Origin: Phycisphaerae bacterium
GTDB taxonomy: Bacteria; Planctomycetota; Phycisphaerae; Phycisphaerales; UBA1924
Direction of reading: 5' to 3'
NCBI GenBank assembly: GCA_030432255.1
Contig: JAUIHS010000012.1
Location: forward strand, 1-64,000
DNA length: 64,000 nucleotides
A program made the position numbers and the translations under genes. Of the stretch, positions 25,429 to 48,092 are shown piece after piece; positions within the stretch are counted from its first letter, which is position 1, and each line of letters starts with the position of its first letter. A model generated the notes under the pieces. The model worked only from the letters and a program-made list of their open reading frames with translations, was not told where the DNA came from and searched no databases.

Positions 25429-25478
25429 TCGGCACTGCCGCGTTCGTCCCTCATAGCGAGTCGTACTGGAGGATCGGC

Positions 25479-27390: not shown

Positions 27391-28958
27391 ACAGGCGCGG
27401 CACCATCCTGCTCGCAGTCCTGATCATCACCGTACTGGGTGCGCTGACTGGTTCCACCATGCTGTATCTCGCCCGCGCGGAGCGTGCCGGACTCTCGGTC
27501 TCGATAGATGGTGTGCAATCACGGGCGCTCGCGTGGTCGGCAATCCAGGTGGTCGCATCGGAACTGGTCGAGCAGCGTGACCGCCTGCTGTCCGGCGAAG
27601 AGCCGGAACTCGAGACCTCGTGGACGCTCTGGGATGATGGCAACAACCGCGGAATTGCCAGGATCATCCCACGCGGCGAACTCAGCTATCTCCCCGAGAG
27701 CGGCAAACTCGACATCAATCACGCCGACGAGGAGATGCTCGCGGCACTCGAACTGCTGGGTCCCGACGCCGCGCGAGAGATCGTCACGCGAAGGGAGTCG
27801 GAACCCTTCATGAGCATCGAAGAACTGATGAGCCTCGACTCGATATCCGAATCCATGCTGTTCGGAGAACCAGAGGACAATGAGGGCGGCGGCTTGCCGG
27901 CTCCACTGACGCTGCTGGATCTCCTGACCGTCTTCAGCTTCGAACCCAACGTACAGGCAGGCATTGGTGATGACGGCACACAGCATCGCGGCGAGCGAAG
28001 AATCAACCTCAATCAGCCTTGGTCGGACGAACTGCACCGTCCGCTGGAACGTCGTTACGGGCGGGAGGTGGCTGACCTGGTACAGGGCTTGATGAAGGAC
28101 GGCACACGCTTCGATGACGATCGCTCGATCATCCGGATTCTCAATCGATTCCGCGTCGAACCGTCCGAGTGGTCTGAGACTCTGGACGTACTGACAACCG
28201 AAGCGAGGCCCTACAGAAATGGCCGCATCGACGTGAACACAGCGCCCCTCGAAGTTCTGGCGCTCCTGCCGCATATCACGGAGAGCATCGCCGACTCAAT
28301 CGTAGAGACACGTCCGCTTCTCTCCGATGAAGAGCGCATGTCGCCCTCCTGGATTGCAGCGTACGAGTTGGTCAGCCCACGGGAATTCGAAGACATCATT
28401 GATCACATCACCTTCCGGACCCTGCAATGGAGATTCCGAGTCGAAGCGGGTATTGAGCGCCAGGATGCCGATGAAATCGGCCTTTCCCGCACTGGTGACC
28501 TTGATGAAGTCGAACTGGAGGATGCGGTCACCTTCGATGTTGTGATCGACCTGGCCTCACCTCGGCCACGAATCGCCTACCTGCGTGATGTCACGCACCT
28601 CGGACTGTCCGAGACGCTTCGGAGTCTGGCGACTGATGATCGCGACACCGAACGGGGCGCGGGGGATGCCATCGATGACATCCTGATCACCGACCGAGCC
28701 GTCGACGCCGATGCTGACCGAGCTGAGTTCATGTCACAGGCATGGAGCCGGGATGACTGGTCGCGAGACGAGTTCTCGCGCGAGTCATGGGGTCGCGAAG
28801 AGTGGGGGAGAGAAGAATGGTCATTGGAAGAGGAACGCAGTCCGACGACTGCTCAGCGACGCCGCGAGGTCATTGAAGACTCGGATGCCGATACGCGCAT
28901 CGGGCGCTGGACCAATGGGCGGCAGGCCCAGGACCTGACCAGTGGGGGTGACTCTTGA
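27387..28958 (+). CDS. gspK: GspK-like pseudopilin with acidic, tryptophan-bearing tail
   Basis: A 523-residue protein starting at GTG 27387 in 4-nt overlap with gspJ. The leader MNRRGTILLAVLIITVLGAL followed by RALAWSAIQVVASELVEQRD, and the later SYLPESGKLDINHADEEMLA and DVNTAPLEVLALLPHIT, are the GspK pattern: a pilin helix plus SAM-like helix-hairpin-helix segments. GspK caps the pseudopilus tip and as usual lacks Glu5. After about residue 450 the sequence changes to repeats of the type SRDDWSRDEFSRESWGREEW, an acidic tail absent from typical GspK (about 330 residues). The family core is confident; the tail's role is unknown. Confidence 0.87.
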   Translation: MNRRGTILLAVLIITVLGALTGSTMLYLARAERAGLSVSIDGVQSRALAWSAIQVVASELVEQRDRLLSGEEPELETSWTLWDDGNNRGIARIIPRGELSYLPESGKLDINHADEEMLAALELLGPDAAREIVTRRESEPFMSIEELMSLDSISESMLFGEPEDNEGGGLPAPLTLLDLLTVFSFEPNVQAGIGDDGTQHRGERRINLNQPWSDELHRPLERRYGREVADLVQGLMKDGTRFDDDRSIIRILNRFRVEPSEWSETLDVLTTEARPYRNGRIDVNTAPLEVLALLPHITESIADSIVETRPLLSDEERMSPSWIAAYELVSPREFEDIIDHITFRTLQWRFRVEAGIERQDADEIGLSRTGDLDEVELEDAVTFDVVIDLASPRPRIAYLRDVTHLGLSETLRSLATDDRDTERGAGDAIDDILITDRAVDADADRAEFMSQAWSRDDWSRDEFSRESWGREEWGREEWSLEEERSPTTAQRRREVIEDSDADTRIGRWTNGRQAQDLTSGGDS

Positions 28959-30520
28959 GTGACGTCCTGATCGTCAGCCTGACGGATGCGCACGCGTCAC
29001 TCCTGCTCGCGACAGGAACGCGCAAGGGGATGCGGGTCCTCAAGGCTCGTGTCGTTGATCTCCCGGAATCGGAGCGCAGCGCCGAACCGGAGGATGTCGG
29101 CCGCTGGCTTCGTAAGGTCGCCGACGAAGCAGGGATCAAGGCTACCGCCGTGGTCTTCGGGGAGAGTCGCCAAGGGTCAGTGTCGAAAGTCCTCACGTTC
29201 GATGGTGTCGAAGACCTGAAGTCCGATCTCCCGGGCATGGTCCGCCTGCAGATGATCAGGCAGGTGAGTTTCCCTGCGGAAGAAGCAGTCATCGACTACG
29301 TCGTACACGACCAGGAGCAGGACCGGGTCGAGGTTCGCGCGGCGGCGATCACGCAGGCGCGGGTGGACTGGTATCGATCGATTGCACGAGGTGCAGGCTG
29401 GAAACTCAGGCGCATCAGTCTGCGCACCAGCGGTATCGGAGCCCTTGTCCGACTCGAGAATCGGCCCGGCGATCATGCATCCCTGTACCTGGCGCCTGGC
29501 TGCGCTGAGTGCGAGATGCTCGTGATCAACAGCGGCCGCACAGTCTTCTCTCGCAGTGTCATTCTGCCCCGCGGTGAGAATGGTGCCGAGACATCCAGCG
29601 ATGACGCCATCCGACGACTGACCACAGAAGCCCGTCGCACATGGATGAGCTACCGCGTCGCCGCCGATACCACGACAGTTGAAAGTCTCGTGGTCATCGG
29701 CGACGGAGGCGATCTCGCTGCGTCATGCGGCCAGGACCTTGCCCTTCCCGTTCGCACGCTCGACCCGGCTCAGTTGGAATCGGTCGCTTGGGACTGCGAG
29801 TTGGACGATCCCGCGGAGCAACTCATCCTCGCCGGACTTGCCGCCGAGGACCTTGAGGGCGCTCCGGTCATCGACTTTGCCCACCCGAGGAGGGCCCCGG
29901 ATCGACGCGCCGCGATGCGACAGCGCATTCTCGTCGGGATCCTGATCTTCATCGCGATTGTCGGCACGGGATTTACCTGGCAGGCCAAGCAACTGGGGTC
30001 GCATCGGGCCGAGCGAGACCTGCTTCGAGATCGGCGGAACGAATTGCGGAACGAGAAGCAGGAAGTCCTCCGAGGCGAAGTTCTTGCGGAGCACGTTCGA
30101 CGCTGGACCGAGGGAGAGACGGACTGGCTCGCGCACATGCAGGTCATCACCGACATGATGCCCGCGTCCGACTACGTGGTCCTCGATGGACTGACCGGGA
30201 CGTCTGACGCGGCCGTCGATTACCGGGGCAGAAGCCGTGCCGAGTACGACGCGAAGCATTGGGAATCCCTGTTGCTGGTCCGCTTCCGGATCGAGGGCCG
30301 CGGCGTCGATCGCGATATCACGAACGCCATCCGTGAGGCGTTGGTCAATGACCGGAGATACCGTGCCGACACACTTGGTGACGACACGGCGGCCCGCCGA
30401 AGCGATCGCTACGGAGAGGCATTCGGCCTGTCTCTCACGACACAACTCGCATCTCCGGTGACAAGCGAGACCAGCGCGACTCCCGTGGCCATATCCGATG
30501 GTCAGGGAGGACAGCCATGA
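28955..30520 (+). CDS. gspL: GspL-like protein (PilM-like actin fold plus PilN-like membrane region)
   Basis: A 521-residue protein starting at TTG 28955 in 4-nt overlap with gspK. The N-terminal 310 residues resemble the actin-like cytoplasmic domain of GspL/PilM (GDHASLYLAPGCAECEMLVI, then NSGRTVFSRSVILPRG). One membrane segment (about 329-347, ILVGILIFIAIVGTGFTWQA) is followed by a coiled-coil and a ferredoxin-like periplasmic domain as in PilN or GspL. GspL links the ATPase to the inner-membrane platform. The length is above the usual 400. It overlaps the next gene by 4 nt (ATGA). Confidence 0.82.
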   Translation: MSDVLIVSLTDAHASLLLATGTRKGMRVLKARVVDLPESERSAEPEDVGRWLRKVADEAGIKATAVVFGESRQGSVSKVLTFDGVEDLKSDLPGMVRLQMIRQVSFPAEEAVIDYVVHDQEQDRVEVRAAAITQARVDWYRSIARGAGWKLRRISLRTSGIGALVRLENRPGDHASLYLAPGCAECEMLVINSGRTVFSRSVILPRGENGAETSSDDAIRRLTTEARRTWMSYRVAADTTTVESLVVIGDGGDLAASCGQDLALPVRTLDPAQLESVAWDCELDDPAEQLILAGLAAEDLEGAPVIDFAHPRRAPDRRAAMRQRILVGILIFIAIVGTGFTWQAKQLGSHRAERDLLRDRRNELRNEKQEVLRGEVLAEHVRRWTEGETDWLAHMQVITDMMPASDYVVLDGLTGTSDAAVDYRGRSRAEYDAKHWESLLLVRFRIEGRGVDRDITNAIREALVNDRRYRADTLGDDTAARRSDRYGEAFGLSLTTQLASPVTSETSATPVAISDGQGGQP

Positions 30521-31488
30521 GTTCCCGCCTCCTGTATCCCGTGCTCGGCCTGATCCTCCTCGGTGTCACCGGCTGGACCTACAAGACCGGCATCCTCGAT
30601 GAAGAACGCGCCGTGCAGTCCGAGATGGTCGCATTGCAACGGGAGATTTCCTCGCTTGAGGAGTACAACCGGAAGCGGGTGCCTCTCACCGAGGAACTCA
30701 GGCAGTTCGAAGTGCGCACACTCGGCTCGACTTCCGAAGAAGTCGAACACGCGCTTCGCGTGCTGCTCCACGAGATCGGTACCGCGAACAGACTGAGCGA
30801 CCTCTCCGTTGATTCACACTCACGCAACCCCGTCCAGAATCCCGCGACCAGGAGAAGCCGCGCGATCATTCGCGACAAGTCAGAACGAGAGCGGCCGGAC
30901 TTCGTGCCCGTCGAGGGTTCCTTGAACGGGAGTGGCAGCCTCGCTCAGGTCACGGCCGCAGTCGCACAGTTGCAGTCGCAGGAATGGATGCATCGCATCA
31001 GTGACCTCCGACTGACGCCCCGGGACGGTGGACGTCGGATTGACCTGCGCGTGACGCTCAGCACGATTTACTTTCCGGGCGCAGCGAGAGCCGCGGCAGA
31101 CCACTCGGCGACTTCCACGGATTCCGAGGCACGTGCCCGGGCCGAGTTGATCGCCGCTCGCGCGCTCTTTTCGCCGGTGCAGCCGACCCCTGAGAAACCG
31201 GTGGAGGTTGTGAAGCCGACACCAACCCCTCCCCCAGTGAAGCCAGCCCCATTACCCTATGGGAAGTGGAGAATCACCGGTTTTGGGCGGGGTGGCCAGG
31301 GCCCGATCCTGTATCTCGTCGGGCCGAAGCAGGCGACTCAGACCCTTGGAGTCGGCGAAGAGGTACTGAATATGGTGTTTCGGGGTCTGGAAGGCCCATT
31401 TGTAGTGTTGGAGTTGGGCGGGAAGCAGTACTATTTCGGAGAGGGCGACACGCTGGACCGGCGTGACGAGGCTCGGCGATCGGATTGA
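30517..31488 (+). CDS. GspM/PilO-like protein with C-terminal GspC/PilP-like domain
   Basis: A 323-residue inner-membrane protein. A single membrane helix (residues about 5-21) and a coiled-coil (EMVALQREISSLEEYNRKRV) lead into a PilO/GspM-like ferredoxin fold. Next comes a proline-rich linker (PTPEKPVEVVKPTPTPPPVK), then a 70-residue beta-rich domain (KWRITGFGRGGQGPILYLVG to the end). This last domain resembles the homology region of GspC or the PilP domain, which binds the secretin N0 domain. No separate gspC is present, so this fusion may connect the inner-membrane platform to the giant secretin encoded next. The GspM part is fairly sure; the GspC/PilP part is an inference from pattern and position. 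Confidence 0.72.
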   Translation: MSSRLLYPVLGLILLGVTGWTYKTGILDEERAVQSEMVALQREISSLEEYNRKRVPLTEELRQFEVRTLGSTSEEVEHALRVLLHEIGTANRLSDLSVDSHSRNPVQNPATRRSRAIIRDKSERERPDFVPVEGSLNGSGSLAQVTAAVAQLQSQEWMHRISDLRLTPRDGGRRIDLRVTLSTIYFPGAARAAADHSATSTDSEARARAELIAARALFSPVQPTPEKPVEVVKPTPTPPPVKPAPLPYGKWRITGFGRGGQGPILYLVGPKQATQTLGVGEEVLNMVFRGLEGPFVVLELGGKQYYFGEGDTLDRRDEARRSD

Positions 31489-31537: not shown

Positions 31538-34500
31538 ATGCCGTTGACCCGAATGGGTGCACTCACAGTCCTCGCCGGGACGTTGCTCGGGATGGTTGAC
31601 GTCCCCGCCGCGCTCGGACAGGCCGGACCGGAGGATGGCGCGGCGACCCCCGCGGCCTCTCCTGGCACCAATGAAATCCGATTCACCTTCAAGGACGCTC
31701 CGCTCGACCAGGTCCTCGACTTCTTCAACCGCGAGACGGGCTTGCCGGTCATACGAAAGACGGAAGCGAAGGGCGCACCCATCACCTTCATCTCGCCGTC
31801 GTCCTATGACCTTGATGAAGCGCTGCGCATTCTGAACATCATCCTGCAGACGCAGGGGATCCATCTCTATCGCGACACTGAGTTCCTCTACCTCGAGAAG
31901 CTTGATCGCATGATCGCGGCGCCGGTGCCGACGTTCCCGGAGGGGCAGGTCCCTGACGGTCTTACTGGTGACCAGGTCATCAGCGTCGTGATCCCATTGA
32001 ACAATGCCACATCCAAGGCGATCGAGGAGCAACTCAAACCACTGATCTCGTCCTTCGGGGCGCTGGTGGCATTGCCCCAGCAGAACGCAGTGATCCTGAC
32101 GGAGACCGCGGCACAGTGCAGGCGCGTGCGCTCGATCATCGACATGCTCGACTCGAAACCGGTCTACGAGGATGCGGTGCGCGTGTTCCCACTCGCGAAC
32201 ATCAACGCCGCCGATGCCATGGCGAGCCTCAAGGTTCTGGTTGCCGAGAAGCAGAAGACGGTTGTCATTGACGGCCAGGGGAATCGGCGGGTCATCGAGG
32301 AAGACAACATCACCGGTGTCAGGCTCGAGGCCAATGCGCAGACCAACTCGATCATCGCGGTCGGCCCGGCAGGGCGCCTCCAGACAATTGAGCAACTCCT
32401 GGATTTGCTCGACGTCTCCGGGGCAGGCAGCGGCACCGGCCGGGAAATGGCCACGTTCGCGCTGAACACCATCAGCGCCGAAGAGGCCCGATCTCACGTT
32501 GAGCGACTCTTCGGCAGCATGCCCGAAGATCGTCGGCCCACGCTCGTTCCCTTGTCGGCCGTCGGCAAACTCACCATCGTCGGCAGCATCGGCTCGATCA
32601 CGCAGGCCGGAGCGCTGCTCAGCGAACTCGATGGTGCCACGACCGATGACGGCCCGCTGGGCCGCGTGGAGCGTCGCGGCACGGTCATGGCCCTTGAGCA
32701 CGTCACGGCTCGGGAAGCCATGCAGGTTCTGGAACGCCTGCTCTCACAACGCCAGCAGCGGACGCTCTCAATTGCTCCAGCCCCGGACCAGCGCGGGCTC
32801 ATCGTGGTCGGGCCATCCGGTGATGTGGATGCGGTGAGTGAATTGCTCACAGCCGTGGATCGCCAACCGGACGTCGTACGGGATGTGCGGATCATTCGCC
32901 TGAGTGAGTCCATTGGCGAAGACCTGCTGGCGCGCGCCCAGGAGTTGTACGCAGCGACGGGACTGGCCGAGCGTGAACCGGTGACCGTCACCGTTGAAGA
33001 GGGGGGGCAGACGGCTGTCCTCGTCGGCGGCAAGTCGGCCATCGAGCGCTTCGTCGGGATCATGCAGTCCGCGGAGCAGACGTTCACGATCGCACAGGAA
33101 ACGCGGACTCACGAACTGTCTCATGTAGCTCCGTCGGCAATGGTGCAGCGACTCGATGCGCTGTCGCGCCCATTGTTGACCCCCGCTGACGGCACAACGT
33201 TTGTCGCACCGCGCTTCGAGGCCATTGATGATCTGGGCATGCTGATCGTTCGCGCGCTCCCGGAACAGCAGGGGGTACTGGATCGGCTGATCGAGACCCT
33301 CGATACGGCATCCGGGTCGGCGCTGCAATTGCGGGTGCTCGACCTCGGTGTCGAAGACCCGGTCACGGTTGCCGACCGCACCATGGAACTCTACGCCAGC
33401 ATGGTGGAGGGGCTCCCTCCGACAGAGCAGGGCGTTGTCAGTTACGAACTGGATCGGGCCTCCGGCAAGCTCATTGTCACCGCTGATCGGATCGGCATGG
33501 ATCGGTTCACCGGTCTGTTGAGCCAGGTTCAGCAACTCACCCCGCCGGCGCGGACCACGAATCTGATCGAGATCAAGTATGCCTCGGCTGCCGATGTCGC
33601 CGGTGGCCTGCAGGAACTCCTCTCGACGACACCGCCGGTGGATCCCGCTCGCGCGGTCGACCCTCCCGACTTCAGGGTCATCGACCGGACGAACTCCATC
33701 ATCATCACTGCTGAGGACGCTCAGCACCGGCTGATCAACGACTACATCCGGCGGCTGGACGTTCTTGAACCCGCTGAAGTGCCCCCGCTCAAGCTCCTGC
33801 AGGTGCGCACCGCCGACGCCGTTCAGGTGGCCGGGATGCTGACAGCACAGTACGACCGGCGCAGCGCCGAAGAGCGGCGTGAGCAGCCCGTTGACATCCG
33901 TGCGGACGGCGCCACGAACACACTTGTTGTCTCCGCACACGAAGCCCTCTTCGATGAGATCCGGGCCTTCGTTGACGATCTCAACCAGGATCCCTCCCAG
34001 GCCGCCCGCGTCACGGAGATCTTCCCGCTCAAGGTTGCCAAGGCTGAGAATGTCGCGCGGGCAATGGATCAGCTCTACCCGATGCCGCCGATCCCGCTGG
34101 ATCGTCGCGGCAACCCGATGCCCTGGCTTCGTGAGCCGCGAGAGGTCAACGTCAGTGCCGACCCGGCCAGCAACGCGCTGATCGTCGACGCCCCGGCAGA
34201 ACGCATGGCCGCTTTCAAGGCCCTCGTTGAGAAACTCGATCGTGTTGAACTGCCTCCCACCGCCGAACTGCGGACCTACTCGATCGAGAGAGCCGATCTG
34301 GATGCCGTGAGCAGGACACTCCAGGCACTCGCGCGGCATGGCTCCCTCGGAGGCAAAGCCGAGCCTGGCAAGCCGGCGGTCCCCGTGACAGTCGAAGCCG
34401 AGCCCCGCTCCGGCACACTCATCATCGGCGGCGATGCGCGAACGCATGAACTGGTGGAGCGCATCCTCGTCGACCTTGGACGTGTGTCCATCGAACGCGA

Positions 34501-37500
34501 ACTCCGGATCGTGCGCATCGAGAACGCCGATCCCGAGGGTGTCCGCGAACAGGCGATGGAGATCTACTCTCAGCAGACAGCACAGGTGCGCAGTGCGCAG
34601 CCGGTCGATGTGACGGTCGATGAGGCGAGTCGCAGTCTCATGGTCGTAGCGGAAACCGAAGCCATGGCCCGGTTCCTGCGCATTCTCGATCAGCTTGAGA
34701 TGCAGGCTGGTCCGCCGCGTGAACTGCGCCTGACCGAGTTGCAGCACGCGGACGCCACACAGGTCGTCGCGTTCCTGAACGACCTCCTCGAGACGTCGCG
34801 GTCCTTCGATGTCGGACTCGGCATCGACCCGGTTTTCGAGCCCGTCGGTACGACCAACAGTCTGCTCGTCGCCGCCCAGCCTGACCAGCACGCCATCATC
34901 GATGCCCTCGTCCAGTCCATCGATGTTCCGGATGAGGCTCGTGCCGGGCCGCTGCGCATACTCCGACTGCGGACCGCCGACGCCGACAACATCGCGCGCG
35001 TGCTTCAGCAGTCCTACGCCCAGCGATCAGCCGAGGAGCGTGCAGAGCGGCCCGTCAACATCCGCGCGGATCAGAACACCAACATGCTCATCGTCAGTGC
35101 GCATCCGGAGATGCTCGCGGAGATCGAGCAACTCGTCTCGCAGTTCAACGAGGCTCAGGCGTACGACTCGGAGGGGCGGGAGATTCGTATCTATCCGCTC
35201 AAGATTGCCCGTGCCGAGGAACTCGCCCGCACACTTGACCAGATGTTCCCCGAGCCGCCGGTCCCGGTTGACCGGTTCGGTCGTCCCCAGAACCACCTCC
35301 GACAGCCAAGAGAGGTCGTGGTCCGCGCAGACCGGCAGACCAACTCCATCATCGTCGATGCGCCGGCTAAGCGCCTTGCCGGATTCGAGCAACTCGTCGC
35401 TCAACTCGATCGCACCGAGATCACCGGTGACCTCGAACTCCGGACCTATCGGATCGAACACGCCGATCTCGATGCTATCGCCGCGACACTGCGCACCCTT
35501 GCCACCTCCGGCGGATTCGATCCGACGGACAGCGGCAGCCGCCAGCGCGAGATCGTCATTCAGTCAGAACCCGTCTCGCGAACTCTGGTGGTCAGCGGAC
35601 CCAGTTCTGTCTTTCCGCACGTTGAACGGGTCATCGATGAACTCGATGCGCTCCCCGAGGCGCCCGAGACGCAGATGCTTTTCTTCGCGCTCCAGCATGC
35701 CCGCGCCGAGAGAGTCCAGCCGCTCCTCAATCGACTGTTGACAGCGCGGCTCGTGCAGCAGCGCGATGAACTTGAGTCCGGAGCGTACGAGGTTGAGCGC
35801 CTGATTGACGTCGCTGCCGATCCCGCAACCAACACGGTGATCCTCACCGTGCCCACCGCCCTCGTCGATGTCAGCCGCGAACTCATCGCCAGGCTCGACA
35901 GCGAAACAGCATCGGTCGGTCAGGAAGTCATCCGCATCGTGCCCCTGACCTTCGCCGACCCGCGCGAGACAGCGCAGACGCTCTCGCAGTCTCTCCGCAA
36001 TGCCAACTTGCCCAGCGGCGGTACCGGTTCAGCCGTCACCATAACGGCCGCCTCCGCATCCAACGCCCTGGTGATCTCAGGTGTCGCGGAGGATCTCGAC
36101 TTCGTCACCGAACTGCTTGACGATCTGGACACCCGTCCGACGCAGGACACCCTCTCGGTGCGTACCTTCCGCCTCGACCACGCCCGCGCAGAAGAGGTCG
36201 CCCCGACCGTCCAGAGACTGCTTGTCGACCAGCGCGCTGCGGACCCCCGTGTCATCGCGGCACGGATCCGGAGCAGCCGAGGCCGCTTCGACGGCGACGT
36301 TCCCATCAATGTGGAAGCCGAGCCACGCACGAACGCGCTCATCGTGTCCGGGCCTGCGGTTATCGTTGACCTTGCCGAGGAGATCGTGGCCACACTCGAT
36401 CAGGAGTCGGGCCAGGACCGGAGCGTGGAAGTCTTCACGCCTGCCCGGGCCAATCCCAATGCACTGATCGACACCACTCGACGCCTGGTTGACGCGACCG
36501 TTCCGAGCCGTGACCCCGTGCAACTCAGTATCGACAAGGCGACGGGCGGCATTCTCGTGATCGGAACGGATGAGCAGGTCGCCGTCGCCATGACTCGCCT
36601 GCGGGAACTCGATGAACAAGCGGTCGAAGCGCCTGAACTGGAGTTGCAGACATTCTCGCTGCAGTATGCCGCCGCGCAGGCCGTGTCACGCTCCGTGGAA
36701 CCCATGCTGCGCGATCGCACGTATTGGCCGGACACCCTGCGGCGCCTTCAGGAAGCTGGTGGTTCGGTCGTCATGCCGACCATCAGTGCAGACGATGCCA
36801 ATAACCGGTTGCTCGTCAGTGCACCCGCACAGTTGATGCCGATCGCCCGACAGTTCATCTCGGCCCTTGATCGCGAACCCACCGGTGGTGCCGTCGAGGT
36901 CCGCGTCTTCCCGTTGCAGAAGAGCACGGCTGAGTCCGTTGCCGCCGCGCTCTCTAAGGGCCTTGCTGCCGGATCGCGCCCTGGTCAACCGGTGCCAGTC
37001 GTCACCGCAGAACCTGCGAGCAACACGGTCATCGTCGCTGCGAGCAGCGCACAGGTCCAGCAGGCTGCCGAACTCATCAAGCCGATGGATGTGTCCATCG
37101 AGCCGGATCTGCCCGGTGTCCGTACCGTCTTCCTCGAACATGCACGGGCCGAGCAGGTCGCTCCGGTCGTCAGTCAGTTGCTGTCCGGCCGCGAGATGTC
37201 CGAGTGGATGCGGCTCAACCTCATCCAGCGACGCATGCAGGTCGACGAGGGCCCGGATGTTCGAGTCGTGGCCGAAGAGCGCCTCAACGCGGTCGTCATC
37301 AGTGCGCCCGTCTCGTTGCTGGAAGCCGCCGAGGAGATGGTGCATCAACTCGATCAGCCACTCTCAACCACTGCCAGACCCGTCCGCCTGATTCCGCTCC
37401 GCAACGTGGAAGCTGCGGCCATCGCCAACAACCTCGAAGACCTGTTCATCGCCGACACGACAGGTGGACCCGAACCGGTCATCCGCGTCGACAACGCCAG

Positions 37501-40500
37501 TAATACGCTCATCGTCCGTGCCACCAACGACCAGTTCACTGAGATCCGGGATCTGGTGGAGGGCATTGACAGCAACGCCATTGTCGGGTCGCGTCAGATC
37601 CGAATGATCCCCGTGGATAGATCACGCTCCGATGCGGGCGCCATGGCGGAGACGATCCGACAACTTCTGCAACAGCGATCCGGTGTGTCAGTTGAGGTGA
37701 TCTCTGTCGATGAACTGATGGGCGGTGACCCGCCGGATTCCGATGACGACCCCGAGGACATCGGGTTCCGTTCCATCGGCGAAGAGTCCTCTGAGGCCGT
37801 CACGCGACGCATCCTCGTCCCGCCGCGGCTCAAGCTGATCATCGGGTACGTGCAAACCGTGACGGCCGCCGCTGAGGATGGCGAGGCGGATGTCACCATT
37901 GCCGTTGACCCGGCCACCAATGCACTGATCGTGGTCGGCTCTGACCGGGCAACGCAGCGGATTGCCGAACTGGTTGCCGCGATCGAACAGGACCTGCCGC
38001 CCGAACCGGGTCGGATCCGGGTGATCCGTCTTCCGGAGGGTGTGAACGGCAACACGCTTGCCAACCTGCTCCGCGCGACCGTGCGGGAACTCGGGCGCTC
38101 CGAGGGCGGCCTGACGGGCCGGGTCGCGGTGATTCCGGATCCCCAGGGCGACTCCATCATCGTGGCCGCGAATGACACGGATTTCGCCACCATTCGTGAG
38201 GTCACGCGTTCCCTCATTCAACCCGGTGATCCACAGTCGCTGACGATCAAGGTGTACGAACTGACATCCGTCTCCGCCGATCGCGCCGTCCGCGCCGTGC
38301 AGGACATGCTCTCGTCGAATCCACGCGGCTGGCAGGGCCGGCAGTTTCGCGATGCCAATCCCCTGGAGATCACGCTCGCCGGAACCGACGGTGCAGTGGA
38401 GACCGCCTCCATCGACGCCAGCCAGGTGCGTGTAAGTGCGGGCCCTTCCGGGACCAGCCTGGTGGTGGCCGCTCCCCGAGATGCCATCGCGTTCCTTGAC
38501 GGCTTCGTCGGACTGATCGACCAGACCACGTTCGAAACCCAGAGCCTGATCCGCGAGTACACGCTCAAGAACGCACGGGCCAACGAGATTGCACAGGTCC
38601 TGCAGACCACTTTCGACGCCGCCCGCGGCCGCATTCGCGGCAATCAGGAAACGCGTGCCCGTTTCGTTGCCGATCGACGCTCCAACACCGTGCTCGTCAC
38701 GGCTTCTGATGATCAACACCGGGAAGCGGAGCGCCTGATTCAAAGACTGGATACGCCAGTCGACGACGAGACTTACAAGCTGACGGTCATCCCTCTCGAC
38801 ACGGCGCGGGCCCGTGAACTCGCCAGCATGCTGAATCGAACGGTTGTCGGAGACGATGAGTCTCTGCGCCGGACCGTGGTGATCGAAGGCAACGACGCCA
38901 TCGGCGCCCTGCTTGTTCGCGCACCGGATGAGCAACTCCTTGAGATTCAGACCATCGTGGCAGAGGTCGATCAACCGGCAGCGGACGAGTATCCAGTGCA
39001 GGCCATCAAGCTTGAGCGCGCCGATGCGGGCCAGGTGGCTGCCTCATTGCGCCAACTCTTTGACGAACGAGCCCGCGCCGCCACCCGTCCGGGTCAGCGA
39101 ACGCCGCCCCGACGCGTTGCGATCACGGGTGATCGACGCTCAGCCACCGTATTCGTTTCGGCCTCCGATGAGGATCTTGAAGAGATTCGCGGTCTCATCG
39201 AGACCTTCGATGCCCCGGCAACTGCGCGGGATCTTCAGTTCCGCGTCGTCACGCTCGAACATGCGATGGCCTCCGATCTCGAGGACACCGTGGTCGACCT
39301 GGCCAACGAGTTCCGCTGGTCACGATGGGGGCAGGACGACTCGGACATCTTCGTGCAGGTCAATGCCCGAACCAACTCGATCGTGCTCATGGGCAAGGGC
39401 GAAAGCTTCGAGGCCATCGAGTCGATCATCCGGACGCTCGACACCGCTGAGGCGGGAAGCGGTGGGATGACGGTGCGCTTCTTTGCAATCGAGAATGCCG
39501 ACCTCGACATTCTGATCGACGTGCTGGAAGAGGCATTCCCCGACCCGAATCGGAACCGCTGGTGGAGGAACCCGACCGGTGCAGGCCTCCAGTTCCGCGT
39601 CGACAACCGCAGTCGACGCCTGATCGTCATCGGACCGGAATCGCAGATGGACGGCGTCGCGGAACTCGTCGCGGACCTCGATGCCCAGGCCATTCCGAGT
39701 GAGCACGAGGTCACCACCGTCGCACTCTCATTCGGCGAGGCGACTCGCGTGGCACAGAGTGTGAACCGCTTCTTCCAGGATCGCGCGCGTCGCGAGGGGG
39801 GCGGCCGGTCCGAGGTCTCGGTCATCGGTTCCGCAGACGGCAACGTGATCATCCTCTCCGCGCCCGAGGCCGACATGGCCCTTGCACGCGACATCATCGC
39901 GCGGCTCGATGCACCCGAGGTTGCCGAAGACCGCCGCATCGAGGTGTACGCGCTGCAACACGGTGAAGCACGGGACATCGCGGACGCCATTCGCGGCCTG
40001 TTCCCGCGCCGGCGCGGCAGCGTCCCGCCGGTCTACGTCACACCCGACAATCGGACGAATGCGATCATCGTCTCGGCTGCGGACGAGGTCTTCCCGCAGG
40101 TCGAAGAACTGATCGCACGAATGGATGCGCCCTCCGATGCCGACATCGTCATGCTGCAGACCTTCCAACTCGCAACCGCGCGGGCTGATGAGGCTGCTCA
40201 GACCCTGCGCGAAGCGCTCGCTCTCGATCAGCAGGCAACGGGACGTGCGGGTGACCTGCAGGGACGGGTTCGCCGGTTCGTCGACGCTTCAGGGCAGGAA
40301 GTCGAGATCCGCGCCACGATCACGCCGGACCGCCGCGCCAATGCGCTCATAGTCTCTGCCGATGAGCCATCCATGGACCTGATCGCACGGCTGATCACGG
40401 AACTCGATGAGAAGCCGACCGTCAGTGAAATCGAGTACCGAGTCATCGAACTCGAGCATGCAGTCGCCCCGGAGATCGAACTCACCGTCGAGCGGCTCCT

Positions 40501-43500
40501 GCGCAAGTGGGCTGATGCCGCCAATGAACCCTCACCGACCGTCTCATCGTCCGTGCGGGACAACACCCTGATCATCGCCGCGACGGCCAACCAGCTCCGG
40601 GAGGTCGATCGCATTCTGTCGCAACTGGACGTTGCGAGCGAGAGCAATCGGACGACGGACTTCGTCCCGCTGCGCTTCGCCGATGCGGAACAGACCCGGG
40701 AAGCCCTGAGCGTCTTTTATGGTCGCTATGCACCCGAGGCGGATACTCCCGGCGCTCGGAACGTCTCGATCGTTGCCGATCCCGCAACCAACTCCCTTGT
40801 CGTCTCAGCTGATGAGGCGGAGTGGCCGGGCATCCGCAAGATCCTGGAAATCTTCGACTCGGAAGAGTACGACTCATCACGCCAACTCGAAGTCATTCCG
40901 CTCGCACATGCTGACGCGCAATCGGTTGCCTCAGCGATCAACGCGGCCTTCGAATCAACGGTTCGCACCGAGATTGAGCGACAGCGCCAGCAGCAGCAAC
41001 AGCAGAATCAACGGCAGCAGCGGGACGATCGGTTTGGGCCGATTGTCTACGATGCGCCGGCCGTTCTGGTGCCGCCGGACGAGATCGTGAGCGTGTCTGC
41101 CGAGGCCATGACCAACAGCCTCATCGTCTCTGCCGGGCGCAAGGACCTGGAACGTGTCCGCCGGATCGTGGAGCAACTCGACGTCCCCGAGTTCGAGAAC
41201 ACACCGACCCCTCGCCTCATCGTGGTGCGACACGGAAAGGCATCGGACCTTGCCCACTCCTTGCGCGAGATGTACGTCCAGATGAATGGCAATCGCGTTC
41301 GTTCATCACGCTCCGTGCTGATAGTCGGTGATGACGCCGCCAGTGCGCTGATCGTGCGTGCAGAGGAGAGTGAGTTCCGACAGATCGCTGCCCTGGCCGA
41401 ATCACTTCAGGCCGAGAGTGCCGACAGCCGCATCACTGTGCGCGTCATCCCACTGCGGACGCAGTCTGCAGTACGACTCGCTACCACAGTGCGAAATGCA
41501 TTCTCGGCTGCCGCGAACCAGTTGGGTGAGCAGCTGTCGATCGAAGTTGATCGGCGCAACAACGCCTTGCTCATCGGCTCGAGCCAGCGCCTCTTCGAAG
41601 AGATTGAGCAGGTTGTGACGGAACTGGACGGCGTGGAGGGCCCCGGTGCTGACCTGATCAACGGACTCGTGGGACAGGAACTCCTGATCGTTGAACTTCG
41701 CAACACCGGACCATCCCAGGTCGCAGACATGCTCAACCAGATGGGCGTGACACGTCAGGTGCGCGATGATCAACCCGCGCTGGTATCCGAACCGGTCGTT
41801 GTCGTTCCGATGACCACGCGCCGTGCTGTTGCCGTCCTCGTCTCACCGGCGGACCGTGCCACCCTGGCATCACTCATTGAGACCATCGATGCCGAGCCTG
41901 CGACCCCGCAGCAGGAAATGGTCATTCTGCCGCTTGCCGTGGCCGACGCTCAGAATGTTGCCTCGACTCTGGAGGCCATGCTCAAGCCGGAGAATGACTC
42001 CGGCGTCGCCATGGCCGAGGCCGTCCGCGAGCAGATGCGGCGCCTGCACCTCAACAGGGAGGGCGTTGGCGCGGAAGATGTCGACCTCGACCTGAGTGTT
42101 CCCATCCGGATCACGCCCGAGCGACAGACCAACGCCGTCGTGGTGACTTCCACACCCGAGAACGTGCTGGCGCTGCGCGAGATCGTCGAACTCCTCGACC
42201 GACTCCCCGTCGGCGACGCCGTCATCGTTCGAATCTTCCATCTGGAGAATGCCGCCGCCGCGAGGATCTCCTCGGTGGTGAAGCAACTCTTCCAACAGGG
42301 CGAGGCACTCCGGCGGAGCCCCGGCTCCACGGTCAGTGGCCTCCCGACCACGGAGACCGGGCGCGCGCTTGCGGGTGAGATTGCCGTGGCCGTGGACGAT
42401 CGGACGAATGCGCTCGTGGTGGCCGGCCGCGAGGAAGCCGTCGCGCTCGCGGAGGTACTCATCGGTGAGCTCGACTCGGACAACACCGCCAACTGGATCG
42501 AACCTCGACTCATCGAACTGCGCCACGCTGATGCCGTCGAACTCGCCGAGACACTGAATCGGATCCTGGTACAGGGCCTCGGTGAGACTCCGGAAGCCGC
42601 CAGCATCCAGCGACAGATCGGTCGCCTGCGCGTCCTGCGTGACGGGGCGGCTGATGGCGAAGCGGTCGAGTCCTTCCTGTTCGCCCCCATGTCGAATCTG
42701 GTCATCCTGCCGGAGGATCAGTTGAATGCCCTCGTGGTCGTCGGCGCAAATGCCAATGTCGATGTGGTTGCCGAACTCGTCGACATGCTCGACGTCAGCG
42801 GCGCCGCTCGGACGGACATGGTCCGTCTGTATCCACTCGAGTTCGCGGCCGCGGATCGCGTCGGGGATATTCTCGAGGGCCTCTTCGAGGATCAGCGTCG
42901 ATCCGGAACGATCAGGGAAGAGGACGATGTTGTCATCGAATCTGACCTGCGAACCAACACGCTCATCATCGCGACCTCGCCGCGGAGCTTCGCAGTCATC
43001 GACAACCTGCTGATGACGCTCGACAGCGACGAGTTGAATGCCACGGTCGGACTGCATGTCATCCCCGTCCGCAACAATGATGCGGAGCAACTTGCGAGGA
43101 AGCTCGAACCACTCATGAAGGCGCGCCTTGATGCCGCGCAGGGTGATGGGCGTTCCCGGCGCGACATCATCAGCATCGAGGCGGATCGGGCGACGAACTC
43201 ACTGATTGTCGCGGCGAGTGACGAGAATTTCTCCGAGATCGAGCGCCTTATCGATTTATTGAGTGCCGAGGAGCCGGTCGGGGATGGTCTTATCGAACTC
43301 TTCCCCCTTCAGACCGCCAAGGCAGATGACATCTCTGAACTCCTCGACGAACTCTACGTTCAGGAAGCCAGGCGCACCCGTGGTGACGGCGCCCTTCGCG
43401 TCTTTGCCGACGAGCGGCTGAACGCGGTGGTCGTGAACGGTCTGCCTTCCGATATCGAACAGATCCGCGACCTGATCAGTCGCCTCGACACGGCAAGCGT

Positions 43501-45256
43501 GTCGACGGTTCGAGAGATCAAGGTCCTGCAACTTCGGTCGGCCAACGCCCTCGAGATCGTGAACCTGCTCGAACAGGTACTCGGCGAAAACAGCCTCGCC
43601 GGTCGCCGCAGTACAAGCCGGCAGGCCACGCTGCTTCGCCTCGTGAGGGAGCAGAGCGAGCAGAGCATCGAAGAGGCCACCGGTCGGAAGCCCACAGAGA
43701 CTGAGATCAACTTCGCTATCAGGGAGCAGGTGACGCTGACGCCCGACCTGCGGACGAATGCGCTGATCGTGTCCGCACCGCCGCCCATGATGGTGCTGAT
43801 TGAAGCGCTGGTCGAGACCATTGACTCCTCGGAAGAAGGTGACCGGGACATCGTCGTCTTCACACTGGATAACGCCGATGCGGAAAACCTTGCTGAGATG
43901 CTCCGTGATCTGTTCCGGCTGAGTCAGCAGGGCAATATCTACCTGCTCGTGCCGAGTCGAATTGGTGGGGGGCCTGTGAGTGCTTCCACGGACCCGAACG
44001 AAGGCATCATCGGCACCGGTGTCAACGTGGTGCCGGATGAGCGCCAGCAACTCTCAATCACCGTCGACGCTCGTACCAACTCACTCCTCGTGTCCGGCAC
44101 TCCGCAGTATCTCGAACTCGTTGGTCGGGTGATCCGTGAACTGGATGCCAAGCCCGGTGCGGAGCGGAAGCAGACGACCGTGCAACTCAAGAACGCACGT
44201 GTCGAGGAAGTTGCCGACGCACTCAATACGTTCATCAACCAGGAGCAGGAACGCATCGCCCGGACATTGGGCCCGGATCGACAGGGCTCGCTGGTTCGCC
44301 GCCTCGAACAGGAGATCAGTGTCGTCGGCGTACCGGGAAGCAGCCGCATCATCCTCAGTGCCTCACCGAGGTACATGAATCGCGTGCTCGAACTCATCGA
44401 TGAACTCGATAAGCCGCCATCCCAGGTCCTGATCCAGGTCATGCTCGCGGAAGTCACCCTCGACTCCGAACAGTCCTGGGGGGTCGACCTGACCATCCAG
44501 CCCCAGGGCCGCGACATGTTCACCGGCTTCACCCGGGCGGCGGGCACCGGCGTGCTGACCGCCATCGGCGTTCCAAACCTCTCTGTCTCGAGCATCGACT
44601 TTGACCTGCTCATTCGAGCCCTTGAAGTCCAGGGACGCCTCGAAGTCCTGAGCCGGCCCCAGATTCTGGTCAACGACAACGAAGACGCCCGGATCCAGGT
44701 CGGTGAGGAGATTCAACTCGTCACCAACGTCGAGCGACTCGACAACGGCAACGTCCGTTCCGATGTGGAACCCCGTGAACTCGGCGTCATCCTCGAAGTG
44801 ACACCTTCAATCAGCCCCGACGGGTTCGTTCGCCTCGACATCGCGCCCCAGATCTCTGCATTGACCACCCGGACCACCCAGGTGTCGGAAGACTTCGAGG
44901 CACCGGTCATCAGCCAGCGTCGTGCCAATACCACCGTCACCGTGCAGGATGGCCAGACCATCGTCATCGGTGGTCTGATTCAGAACTCGACCGATTCTCG
45001 CGACACCAAGGTGCCGTTGCTCGGTGATATTCCCTTGATCGGAGCCGTCTTCCAGTCCAAGCGCGCCACGCAGACCAAGACAGAACTGCTCATCGTCATC
45101 ACGCCGCGCGTCATTCCCAGTGACGAGACCCTGCTCGACCTCACCCTCGAAGAAGTCGAGATGTTGAACCTCGCCGAGGACATGAAGGAGCGCCTCCGCC
45201 GCAGGATCCTCGGACAGCACGAACTCGGCCCCATCATTCAGCCGGAGCAGAAGTGA
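31538..45256 (+). CDS. gspD: Giant secretin (GspD-like) with about 50 N1-type repeats
   Basis: An uninterrupted frame of about 4,572 residues; normal GspD has about 650-700. A signal peptide (residues 1-28, ending ALGQA) precedes an N0-like domain (IRFTFKDAPLDQVLDFFNRE, about 46-130). From about 147 to 4296 there is a tandem array that I count by hand as about 50 secretin N1/NolW-like repeats of roughly 75-110 residues. Each has the form: beta strand, (H/N)A-x-A helix, strand ending in TNxLIVSA, helix ending in LD. The C-terminal 276 residues are an ordinary secretin channel (VLIQVMLAEVTLDSEQSWGV, then GQTIVIGGLIQ and PLLGDIPLIGAVFQS). The start has AGGGAGG 6 nt upstream. The protein is nearly cysteine-free. 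It should form an outer-membrane pore with an extremely long periplasmic part. Confidence 0.95.
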   Translation: MPLTRMGALTVLAGTLLGMVDVPAALGQAGPEDGAATPAASPGTNEIRFTFKDAPLDQVLDFFNRETGLPVIRKTEAKGAPITFISPSSYDLDEALRILNIILQTQGIHLYRDTEFLYLEKLDRMIAAPVPTFPEGQVPDGLTGDQVISVVIPLNNATSKAIEEQLKPLISSFGALVALPQQNAVILTETAAQCRRVRSIIDMLDSKPVYEDAVRVFPLANINAADAMASLKVLVAEKQKTVVIDGQGNRRVIEEDNITGVRLEANAQTNSIIAVGPAGRLQTIEQLLDLLDVSGAGSGTGREMATFALNTISAEEARSHVERLFGSMPEDRRPTLVPLSAVGKLTIVGSIGSITQAGALLSELDGATTDDGPLGRVERRGTVMALEHVTAREAMQVLERLLSQRQQRTLSIAPAPDQRGLIVVGPSGDVDAVSELLTAVDRQPDVVRDVRIIRLSESIGEDLLARAQELYAATGLAEREPVTVTVEEGGQTAVLVGGKSAIERFVGIMQSAEQTFTIAQETRTHELSHVAPSAMVQRLDALSRPLLTPADGTTFVAPRFEAIDDLGMLIVRALPEQQGVLDRLIETLDTASGSALQLRVLDLGVEDPVTVADRTMELYASMVEGLPPTEQGVVSYELDRASGKLIVTADRIGMDRFTGLLSQVQQLTPPARTTNLIEIKYASAADVAGGLQELLSTTPPVDPARAVDPPDFRVIDRTNSIIITAEDAQHRLINDYIRRLDVLEPAEVPPLKLLQVRTADAVQVAGMLTAQYDRRSAEERREQPVDIRADGATNTLVVSAHEALFDEIRAFVDDLNQDPSQAARVTEIFPLKVAKAENVARAMDQLYPMPPIPLDRRGNPMPWLREPREVNVSADPASNALIVDAPAERMAAFKALVEKLDRVELPPTAELRTYSIERADLDAVSRTLQALARHGSLGGKAEPGKPAVPVTVEAEPRSGTLIIGGDARTHELVERILVDLGRVSIERELRIVRIENADPEGVREQAMEIYSQQTAQVRSAQPVDVTVDEASRSLMVVAETEAMARFLRILDQLEMQAGPPRELRLTELQHADATQVVAFLNDLLETSRSFDVGLGIDPVFEPVGTTNSLLVAAQPDQHAIIDALVQSIDVPDEARAGPLRILRLRTADADNIARVLQQSYAQRSAEERAERPVNIRADQNTNMLIVSAHPEMLAEIEQLVSQFNEAQAYDSEGREIRIYPLKIARAEELARTLDQMFPEPPVPVDRFGRPQNHLRQPREVVVRADRQTNSIIVDAPAKRLAGFEQLVAQLDRTEITGDLELRTYRIEHADLDAIAATLRTLATSGGFDPTDSGSRQREIVIQSEPVSRTLVVSGPSSVFPHVERVIDELDALPEAPETQMLFFALQHARAERVQPLLNRLLTARLVQQRDELESGAYEVERLIDVAADPATNTVILTVPTALVDVSRELIARLDSETASVGQEVIRIVPLTFADPRETAQTLSQSLRNANLPSGGTGSAVTITAASASNALVISGVAEDLDFVTELLDDLDTRPTQDTLSVRTFRLDHARAEEVAPTVQRLLVDQRAADPRVIAARIRSSRGRFDGDVPINVEAEPRTNALIVSGPAVIVDLAEEIVATLDQESGQDRSVEVFTPARANPNALIDTTRRLVDATVPSRDPVQLSIDKATGGILVIGTDEQVAVAMTRLRELDEQAVEAPELELQTFSLQYAAAQAVSRSVEPMLRDRTYWPDTLRRLQEAGGSVVMPTISADDANNRLLVSAPAQLMPIARQFISALDREPTGGAVEVRVFPLQKSTAESVAAALSKGLAAGSRPGQPVPVVTAEPASNTVIVAASSAQVQQAAELIKPMDVSIEPDLPGVRTVFLEHARAEQVAPVVSQLLSGREMSEWMRLNLIQRRMQVDEGPDVRVVAEERLNAVVISAPVSLLEAAEEMVHQLDQPLSTTARPVRLIPLRNVEAAAIANNLEDLFIADTTGGPEPVIRVDNASNTLIVRATNDQFTEIRDLVEGIDSNAIVGSRQIRMIPVDRSRSDAGAMAETIRQLLQQRSGVSVEVISVDELMGGDPPDSDDDPEDIGFRSIGEESSEAVTRRILVPPRLKLIIGYVQTVTAAAEDGEADVTIAVDPATNALIVVGSDRATQRIAELVAAIEQDLPPEPGRIRVIRLPEGVNGNTLANLLRATVRELGRSEGGLTGRVAVIPDPQGDSIIVAANDTDFATIREVTRSLIQPGDPQSLTIKVYELTSVSADRAVRAVQDMLSSNPRGWQGRQFRDANPLEITLAGTDGAVETASIDASQVRVSAGPSGTSLVVAAPRDAIAFLDGFVGLIDQTTFETQSLIREYTLKNARANEIAQVLQTTFDAARGRIRGNQETRARFVADRRSNTVLVTASDDQHREAERLIQRLDTPVDDETYKLTVIPLDTARARELASMLNRTVVGDDESLRRTVVIEGNDAIGALLVRAPDEQLLEIQTIVAEVDQPAADEYPVQAIKLERADAGQVAASLRQLFDERARAATRPGQRTPPRRVAITGDRRSATVFVSASDEDLEEIRGLIETFDAPATARDLQFRVVTLEHAMASDLEDTVVDLANEFRWSRWGQDDSDIFVQVNARTNSIVLMGKGESFEAIESIIRTLDTAEAGSGGMTVRFFAIENADLDILIDVLEEAFPDPNRNRWWRNPTGAGLQFRVDNRSRRLIVIGPESQMDGVAELVADLDAQAIPSEHEVTTVALSFGEATRVAQSVNRFFQDRARREGGGRSEVSVIGSADGNVIILSAPEADMALARDIIARLDAPEVAEDRRIEVYALQHGEARDIADAIRGLFPRRRGSVPPVYVTPDNRTNAIIVSAADEVFPQVEELIARMDAPSDADIVMLQTFQLATARADEAAQTLREALALDQQATGRAGDLQGRVRRFVDASGQEVEIRATITPDRRANALIVSADEPSMDLIARLITELDEKPTVSEIEYRVIELEHAVAPEIELTVERLLRKWADAANEPSPTVSSSVRDNTLIIAATANQLREVDRILSQLDVASESNRTTDFVPLRFADAEQTREALSVFYGRYAPEADTPGARNVSIVADPATNSLVVSADEAEWPGIRKILEIFDSEEYDSSRQLEVIPLAHADAQSVASAINAAFESTVRTEIERQRQQQQQQNQRQQRDDRFGPIVYDAPAVLVPPDEIVSVSAEAMTNSLIVSAGRKDLERVRRIVEQLDVPEFENTPTPRLIVVRHGKASDLAHSLREMYVQMNGNRVRSSRSVLIVGDDAASALIVRAEESEFRQIAALAESLQAESADSRITVRVIPLRTQSAVRLATTVRNAFSAAANQLGEQLSIEVDRRNNALLIGSSQRLFEEIEQVVTELDGVEGPGADLINGLVGQELLIVELRNTGPSQVADMLNQMGVTRQVRDDQPALVSEPVVVVPMTTRRAVAVLVSPADRATLASLIETIDAEPATPQQEMVILPLAVADAQNVASTLEAMLKPENDSGVAMAEAVREQMRRLHLNREGVGAEDVDLDLSVPIRITPERQTNAVVVTSTPENVLALREIVELLDRLPVGDAVIVRIFHLENAAAARISSVVKQLFQQGEALRRSPGSTVSGLPTTETGRALAGEIAVAVDDRTNALVVAGREEAVALAEVLIGELDSDNTANWIEPRLIELRHADAVELAETLNRILVQGLGETPEAASIQRQIGRLRVLRDGAADGEAVESFLFAPMSNLVILPEDQLNALVVVGANANVDVVAELVDMLDVSGAARTDMVRLYPLEFAAADRVGDILEGLFEDQRRSGTIREEDDVVIESDLRTNTLIIATSPRSFAVIDNLLMTLDSDELNATVGLHVIPVRNNDAEQLARKLEPLMKARLDAAQGDGRSRRDIISIEADRATNSLIVAASDENFSEIERLIDLLSAEEPVGDGLIELFPLQTAKADDISELLDELYVQEARRTRGDGALRVFADERLNAVVVNGLPSDIEQIRDLISRLDTASVSTVREIKVLQLRSANALEIVNLLEQVLGENSLAGRRSTSRQATLLRLVREQSEQSIEEATGRKPTETEINFAIREQVTLTPDLRTNALIVSAPPPMMVLIEALVETIDSSEEGDRDIVVFTLDNADAENLAEMLRDLFRLSQQGNIYLLVPSRIGGGPVSASTDPNEGIIGTGVNVVPDERQQLSITVDARTNSLLVSGTPQYLELVGRVIRELDAKPGAERKQTTVQLKNARVEEVADALNTFINQEQERIARTLGPDRQGSLVRRLEQEISVVGVPGSSRIILSASPRYMNRVLELIDELDKPPSQVLIQVMLAEVTLDSEQSWGVDLTIQPQGRDMFTGFTRAAGTGVLTAIGVPNLSVSSIDFDLLIRALEVQGRLEVLSRPQILVNDNEDARIQVGEEIQLVTNVERLDNGNVRSDVEPRELGVILEVTPSISPDGFVRLDIAPQISALTTRTTQVSEDFEAPVISQRRANTTVTVQDGQTIVIGGLIQNSTDSRDTKVPLLGDIPLIGAVFQSKRATQTKTELLIVITPRVIPSDETLLDLTLEEVEMLNLAEDMKERLRRRILGQHELGPIIQPEQK
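31976..44425 (+). repeat. Protein-level tandem array of about 50 secretin N1/NolW-like repeats
   Basis: Hand segmentation of the translated secretin gives about 50 units, mean about 83 residues. Conserved positions are an A-[DR]-A cluster at the first helix, the strand signature (T/S)N-x-[LI]-[IV]-V-x-[AG], and a terminal -LD or -ID. The units are diverged at DNA level, so this is an old expansion kept open under selection, not a recent slippage repeat. The first few units and numbers 25-27 and 41 are the most divergent, so the count could shift by two or three. Confidence 0.9.
33320..35665 (+). repeat. Two adjacent 391-residue super-repeats inside the secretin
   Basis: Units 7-11 (33320-34492) and units 12-16 (34493-35665) match in order. 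Examples are DRRSAEERREQPVDIRADGA against AQRSAEERAERPVNIRADQN, and the proline-rich insert PPIPLDRRGNPMPWLREPRE against PPVPVDRFGRPQNHLRQPRE. With my boundaries both blocks are 1,173 bp. This points to segmental duplication of a five-domain block. Confidence 0.82.
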
Positions 45257-45792
45257 TCCCAAGGACCATGGTGAGACCGGTGTGGGTCATGGCGTCAGCC
45301 GCCGCGATGTTGCTGTCGGGCTGCGCGACCGACCAGCCCCGCCAACTGCCGCCCGCCGCCCAGGCAGCCCCCGCCGACACACCCGTGGAGCGGATGCTCG
45401 TCAGCACGGACAAGTTCTCCAAGGACCAGAATGGGAACGGCTTTTACGACACCTTCATGTGCGTCGTCTATCTCTTCGCGCCCGACCAGTCCGCAATCCC
45501 CATGCACAGCCCGGGACGTATGACCTTTGAACTGAACGACGAGGAGAACTACACCATCGCACGCTGGAGTGTCAGCGAGGACGCGCTGGCCCGGATCGCG
45601 GGAGTCTACAGCGGCCTGCCGGGATATTTTCTTTCCCTGAACATCGCCGATGTGGGCGACGATCGGATCATCTCCAAGCGCGCGGAACTCACCTGCACCT
45701 TCTACCCGGCCGATGGCGGACCCTCCGTCAGGGCGTCCCCGGTCCCGGTTCAGCAGGTCGGTCCGATCAGTGCCGGTTCCCTCCGACGCTGA
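45253..45792 (+). CDS. Outer-membrane-type lipoprotein coupled to the giant secretin; candidate pilotin
   Basis: A 179-residue lipoprotein starting at GTG 45253, which overlaps the secretin stop by 4 nt. The signal peptide ends in the lipobox MLLSGC, followed by Ala and Thr, which favours an outer-membrane location by the rules known from gamma-proteobacteria. The mature part has a 30-residue Ala/Pro linker and then a compact beta-rich domain (KFSKDQNGNGFYDTFMCVVY, MTFELNDEENYTIARWSVSE) that I cannot assign to a family. Secretins often need a lipoprotein pilotin for targeting to the outer membrane. Position and coupling make that role plausible here, but it shows no recognisable GspS or PilF (TPR) features. 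A downstream in-frame ATG at codon 6 is an alternative start. Confidence 0.8.
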   Translation: MIPRTMVRPVWVMASAAAMLLSGCATDQPRQLPPAAQAAPADTPVERMLVSTDKFSKDQNGNGFYDTFMCVVYLFAPDQSAIPMHSPGRMTFELNDEENYTIARWSVSEDALARIAGVYSGLPGYFLSLNIADVGDDRIISKRAELTCTFYPADGGPSVRASPVPVQQVGPISAGSLRR

Positions 45793-48081: not shown

Positions 48082-48092
48082 GAGGCCTGACC

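Follow-up and report, generated by a model that had tools for sequence, protein, structure and literature searches.

A conserved giant GspD secretin with 50 tandem N-domain repeats in the class Phycisphaerae

The locus

The DNA analysed is a stretch of 64,000 nucleotides from a Phycisphaerae bacterium (contig JAUIHS010000012.1, positions 1-64,000), referred to here as the window, and all coordinates are those of the window. Where families, loci and genomes of the class survey have to be told apart they are given as f1, f5, f6, f8, f16-f19 and f22, as L numbers and as G numbers respectively. The giant gene, its domains and its neighbours are as follows.

20986..22671, minus strand: GspE/PilB-type ATPase, on the strand opposite to the giant (profile matches)
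23561..24805, plus strand: GspF platform protein (profile matches)
24961..25428, plus strand: GspG major pseudopilin (profile match)
25383..26201, plus strand: GspH-like pseudopilin (profile match)
26198..26701, plus strand: GspI-like minor pseudopilin (weak match)
26716..27390, plus strand: GspJ-like minor pseudopilin (below cut-off)
27387..28958, plus strand: GspK minor pseudopilin (profile matches)
28955..30520, plus strand: GspL/PilM-like platform protein (TIGR01175, 1.5e-11)
30517..31488, plus strand: GspM-like protein, named by position, without a family match of its own
31210-31485, plus strand: C-terminal ~90 residues of GspM, a proline-rich linker and a possible GspC-HR-like domain (weak HR match)
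31538..45256, plus strand: giant GspD secretin gene, 4,572 codons and stop; alternative start GTG at 31463
31538..31624, plus strand: signal-peptide-like N-terminus of ~29 residues (by eye only)
31688..31861, plus strand: N0-like domain PF21305, below cut-off in the window and precomputed in several homologues
32063..44419, plus strand: 50 tandem N-domain (Secretin_N/NolW) repeats, by an HMM trained on the repeats of the protein itself; median period 78 residues
44618..45115, plus strand: C-terminal secretin channel domain PF00263 (Pfam, profile and Foldseek matches)
45253..45792, plus strand: 179-aa lipoprotein that overlaps the stop of the giant, a candidate pilotin (lipobox LSGC by eye)

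The giant gspD is the last gene of a type II secretion system (T2SS) run that reads F, G, H, I (weak), J (sub-threshold), K, L and an M-like gene, and its product is the GspD of this operon. The ATPase has its best match in GspE, with the PilB model scoring nearly as high, and no match to GspC was obtained among the window neighbours scanned. The window shares the C-terminal domain of its GspM-like protein with 21 of 31 selected frames, the alignment being confined to these 22. Compared with the HR domain of GspC it reached 2lnv at a non-significant E of 0.74, and PF16537 was matched in one of the 22 members, at 0.0026; the resemblance to an HR domain is suggestive only. An HR-like domain has been reported in PilW of Thermus, a protein suggested in the excerpted text to connect PilQ with its platform (PMC13039148).

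This arrangement recurs around related giants: among 35 relative loci GspK lies upstream in 31, and GspL and GspM in 30 each. The four loci that show none of the three have less than 3 kb of upstream sequence each; despite longer flanks, L026 is without a GspL match and L040 without a GspM match. A match to the lipoprotein lies downstream of the giant in 28 of the 35 loci (in L038 beyond broken frames), and five of the seven misses (L026, L028, L030, L034 and L044) have a lipobox-bearing frame, recognised by eye, in the same place.

In the window the lipoprotein gene is followed on the plus strand by genes for two secreted-looking proteins (45967-48081 and 48078-50159). The second shows a weak match to the GC-type dockerin model NF041540 (24.6 bits, cut-off 29) and the C-terminal stretch of the first resembles, by eye, that of the second; both might be substrates of this T2SS. 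On the minus strand there follow an alpha-amylase/pullulanase-like protein of 1,065 aa with an AMPK1_CBM-type domain (50166-53363) and a protein of 1,072 aa with a subtilase domain (55812-59030).

Domain organisation of the giant protein

The open frame runs without a stop from 31463 to 45256 on the plus strand, giving 4,597 codons from the upstream GTG or 4,572 from the ATG at 31538 and a chain of ~498 kDa whose calculated pI is 4.6. The sequence-only reading had described a giant secretin in one intact frame with about 50 N-domains, and the profile count that it proposed agrees: Pfam recognises 45 stretches of Secretin_N (1,253.6 bits), and an iterated HMM derived from the repeats themselves raises the count to 50, at residues 176-4294 of the 4,572-aa form, repeat 1 being matched in part only. 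The single channel domain (PF00263) lies at residues 4386-4551 in the 4,597-aa numbering and is matched at 1.2e-49; the score of the N0 model PF21305 is 15.7 bits against a Pfam cut-off of 27. The GspD equivalog model TIGR02517 gives 1,249 bits against a cut-off of 351, a score that is summed over 24 stretches and so inflated, and the PilQ model likewise exceeds its own cut-off. In PilQ an AMIN domain precedes the N-domains; AMIN is absent among the six Pfam families that the giant protein matches at E values up to 1. Among solved structures, GspD is the top match in profile searches both with repeats 34-41 and with the tail.

The N-domain fold, the channel and the operon are shared with known GspD (PDB 5wq7, 5zdh, 6hcg). 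The four-ring plan of GspD, with N0 followed by N1-N3 only, does not describe the giant, which has 50 repeats in 4,572 aa, whereas four ordinary GspDs of the class have 3 repeats (own HMM) in 691-818 aa. The linkers are alike: 47 of the 49 between window repeats are 4-8 residues long, with a median of 6, and both linkers are of 5 residues in all four ordinary class GspDs. The identification as a secretin made in the sequence-only reading thus stands; the T2SS GspD role, the class-wide family and the split two-gene form described below were absent from it.

Operons of the same make carry these ordinary, 3-repeat GspDs in four genomes of the class (f18 twice, f6 and f5), and since it is the same kind of operon that holds them the giant is likely an enlarged form of the ordinary GspD of the class. 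The f5 and f6 genomes additionally hold one giant each (L039 and L040). In three loci belonging to other classes the counts are 7, 8 and 5 repeats. In the genome of the window itself there are six further secretin places, four of which have 4, 2, 3 and 1 repeats by our own HMM and two none; ordinary secretins, with no more than 4 repeats, alongside the giant fit poorly with a periplasm that is uniformly 100 nm wide.

Distribution

Secretin frames of 3,000-6,169 aa recur across the class Phycisphaerae, single-contig genomes included, and within the family of the window a frame of at least 3,000 aa is present in at least 28 of 61 genomes (the window included). The class search gave a channel match at 1e-40 in 366 of 397 genomes. 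Among the 150 class matches listed there were 88 frames of at least 3,000 aa, 11 of 2,000-2,999, 39 of 1,200-1,999 and 12 shorter, some of them ending at contig ends. In a sample of 392 genomes of the phylum, class members included, 93 matched at an E of 1e-60, and outside the class no frame among the matches listed at that threshold exceeded 1,415 aa, the 299 genomes without a match being uninformative on giants.

A protein search restricted to proteins of 0.55-1.75 times the length of the giant scored 1,488 candidates, 916 of which passed 1e-20; the longest among the best 120 of these is 6,165 aa. They carry source names such as 'hypothetical protein', 'secretin N-terminal domain-containing protein' and 'type II secretion system protein D'. 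The 80 named contigs belong mostly to Phycisphaerales, Phycisphaerae or Planctomycetota assemblies, and the few labelled Vicinamibacteraceae, Leptolyngbya or Cyanobacteria look like misnamed bins. The organisms named among the best 120 matches of each of three protein searches are metagenome assemblies, with no cultured carrier among them. For the cultured Phycisphaeraceae strain Pan265 a table lists one giant gene of more than 15 kb, an entry that does not imply its identity as a secretin (excerpt of PMC8882080).

The largest genome frame seen, L145 (G141, f16), is 6,169 aa long with at least 62 repeats, the frame being cut by the fetched stretch. Four f1 genomes (G052, G050, G048 and G040) are without a giant secretin, having no Secretin_N-matching frame above 1,084 aa. 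The giant gene is present in overlapping broken frames in L038 (G075) and L051 (PNC21), and as a short frame in L105 (PNC22), possibly as a result of sequencing indels.

The search for homologues in related planctomycetes that had been proposed found giants across the class, and a class-wide giant secretin family with 31-62 repeats, kept individually within the most heavily sampled of its families, would be new in scale, the secretin fold itself being known. No description of a giant secretin was found, by title and start of abstract, among the papers listed from the literature searched, which includes hardly any preprints and few subscription papers.

Repeat number, order and constraint

Exactly 50 repeats are present in 14 of 26 loci of the window's family (window included), the others having 36-51, and the giants fetched from other families of the class have 31-62. 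The repeats of the window were compared one by one with those of 15 of the 35 relatives. Most window repeats are best matched by the repeat in the corresponding place, 48 of 50 being reciprocal best in L013 and L045 and 47 of 50 in L022 and L029, and in shorter relatives definable blocks of repeats are missing. Only 17 of 50 repeats are reciprocal best between the window and the giants L039 (f5) and L040 (f6), which suggests that the middle of the array has either diverged beyond recognition or been expanded independently.

In eight same-genus pairs of relatives, none of which includes the window, omega ranges from 0.057 to 0.211, no repeat reaches 1, and repeats and channel are under about the same constraint; the most distant pair has a dS close to saturation, and no estimate was obtained for 7 of its 50 repeats. 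Repeat number is equal in seven of the eight pairs and 37 against 38 in the remaining one, as would be expected of a ruler for a wide envelope. One-to-one repeat partners in other genera, together with the low omega, indicate that the array is not a product of chance. The earlier suggestion that diverged repeats are under selection is hence borne out by both the omega values and the repeat order kept between genera, and the window gene is a real, conserved giant GspD, the scale of which is very surprising.

Recent tandem amplification was considered as an origin of the array and rejected: best-paralogue scores are 0.09-0.57, most of them below 0.3, whereas the best orthologues in four relatives with 50 repeats average 0.42-0.44. 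A block copy involving repeats 8-11 and 13-16 accounts for the higher paralogue values.

A split two-gene form

In three f19 loci (L158, L161 and L162) and one f17 locus (L165) a channel-less frame of 2,792-3,583 aa directly precedes a channel-bearing frame of 1,748-1,908 aa, lengths being measured from stop to stop, with the channel frame of L162 cut at 1,458 aa and the two frames of L165 overlapping. GspL and GspK lie upstream of the pair in all four loci, and both halves start with a sequence that by eye resembles a signal peptide. Counted with a family HMM the halves hold 25+15, 26+15, 30+15 (the last gene being cut by the fetched stretch) and 32+15 repeats, and five single-chain relatives from f8 and f22 have 40, 41, 42, 41 and 37; the split totals of at least 45 and of 47 exceed this single-chain range of 37-42. 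The channel half of L158 is in register with repeats 32-40 of L146, preceded by partners of repeats 29 and 30; register with L146 is patchy for the channel-less half, and with L147 and L148 for both halves. L163, broken by a run of N, was left out of the count. In G419 (f17, 72% complete) no second half was found within the 20 kb fetched; this genome has one channel match and, far from the channel gene, a 1,601-aa frame in which Secretin_N is matched 11 times. The distribution of the array over two genes means that a single covalent chain is unnecessary, as expected of stacked rings.

Structure models and known secretins

AlphaFold single-chain models were made of repeats 34-41 (53 of 95 alignment rows) and of the tail (38 of 109 rows). 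The former contains eight confident N-domains, all of beta-alpha-beta-beta-alpha topology (pLDDT 86.3, pTM 0.43); the tail model is weaker (pLDDT 76.0, pTM 0.40). Foldseek returned T2SS secretins as the best matches for both. Two of the eight modelled domains (residues 165-234 and 499-567) dominate the superposition and, taken one at a time, match GspD N-domains at 1.1-1.5 A, the remaining six being barely covered, and superpositions of several domains on known secretins are poor, at 5-20 A over 121-244 residues. The low pTM and the poor several-domain fits indicate that single-chain models leave domain orientation and axial stacking unfixed. The multi-repeat prediction proposed in the sequence-only reading hence upheld the N-domain fold one domain at a time and did not extend to a several-domain fit, and the tube of more than 100 nm that it envisaged, favoured by the close single fits and not by the poor longer ones, keeps its conditional standing.

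DR_0774 of Deinococcus (PDB 8co1) also has several N-domains and is matched by sequence (5.4e-19) and by Foldseek, but it has only 740 residues and superposes over 244 residues at 20 A rmsd. Known secretins have few periplasmic rings, and six have been termed unusual; PilQ of Thermus has six stacked rings and a length of 350 A (~35 nm) (excerpt of PMC5745081), in a periplasm of ~70 nm (excerpt of PMC4463427). Thermus PilQ shares extra beta-alpha-beta-beta-alpha N-domains with the giant and offers a precedent for stacked rings in a wide periplasm; it differs in being a type IV pilus secretin of 757 residues, with six rings against the 50 repeats of the giant. The surface craters of planctomycetes, which had been adduced in favour of a long tube, are a weak argument, as described Phycisphaeraceae are reported to be without crateriform structures in the excerpted text of PMC8882080, a paper on an isolate of that family. 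Planctomycete genes annotated for type II secretion, with phylum-specific neighbours, have been described at the Plim_0410-0401 locus of Planctopirus limnophila, a secretion-annotated locus from a transposon screen (excerpt of PMC10632474), which may be likened to the present operon by description.

Interpretation

The reading that we consider probable is that this T2SS GspD stacks its 50 N-domains as successive rings, giving a tube with a predicted length of more than 100 nm, which would connect the platform in the inner membrane with the pore in the outer membrane. As in known secretins, 12-15 chains would form a pore, each repeat would contribute one ring and the channel would sit in the outer membrane. 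The N0 end would lie at the inner membrane, perhaps held by the HR-like C-terminus of GspM, with the lipoprotein acting as a putative pilotin and the pseudopilus working inside the tube and pushing substrates out. In f17 and f19 the tube would consist of two segments placed end to end, the lower without a channel and the upper with it. One ring per repeat is favoured because the array can be split over two genes and because its linkers are as short as those of ordinary GspDs. An assumed 2.5-3.5 nm per ring over 50 rings would give 125-175 nm, and 13-15 chains some 6.5-7.5 MDa.

That the gene is an assembly artefact or in decay can be dismissed with near certainty. The broken frames of the PNC21 assembly (L038 and L051), and perhaps the short frame of PNC22 (L105), are of the kind that this explanation would predict, but intact giant frames are present in the single-contig genomes G035, G086, G130 and G325, and an omega of 0.06-0.21 speaks against decay. 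Recurrence of giant frames in many genomes, single-contig ones among them, excludes an assembly error and confirms the earlier view of an intact frame. The main rival to the stacked tube is a partly folded scaffold, in which only the channel-proximal repeats form rings and all others make up a string or scaffold around the pore, flexible or folded, in the periplasm that tethers the pore to the inner membrane or cell wall or gathers substrates. Such a scaffold would be compatible with a periplasm of ordinary width and with the ordinary secretins of the same genome, and the AlphaFold models fix no domain-to-domain geometry that would contradict it; we nevertheless regard it as unlikely, perhaps a one-in-four matter, given the tight 4-8-residue linkers along nearly the whole array, a constraint on the repeats about equal to that on the channel and the two polypeptides of the four f17/f19 loci, which would break a tether.

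A short tube of few chains and few rings, with each chain supplying many domains to a ring, seems improbable. Its sole support is arithmetic, 50 domains making about four rings of 13, and against it the channel domain occurs once per chain while PilQ channels are reported with 12-15 copies (excerpt of PMC13039148), the linkers are like those of ordinary consecutive N-domains and repeat numbers of 31-62 show no steps of ring size. It is also rather doubtful, if less so, that the tube belongs to a pilus-like machine or one for uptake, of polysaccharides for example, and not to protein secretion. Polymer uptake by means of pili and an enlarged periplasm has been reported for planctomycetes (excerpt of PMC8882080, citing others), the GspL protein is matched by PilM and the ATPase scores almost as high with the PilB model as with that of GspE; the operon, however, contains GspG, GspH, GspJ-like and GspK genes and its ATPase is matched best by GspE.

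Returning to the stacked tube, its fullest form would be the longest secretion conduit known, a structure of 100-170 nm and ~7 MDa made of about 50 individually specialised rings. Their number would act as a conserved molecular ruler for the envelope, and some lineages would put the conduit together from two stackable segments with a gene each; we put this at slightly less than an even chance. The class-wide giants would amount either to a tube across the envelope on a new scale or to a quite different use of a familiar domain, and either answer would be new. The finding makes the width of the planctomycete periplasm, secretion across a wide periplasm and ring number as a ruler open to test, and with the two-gene form nature offers a test of whether rings stack without a covalent link.
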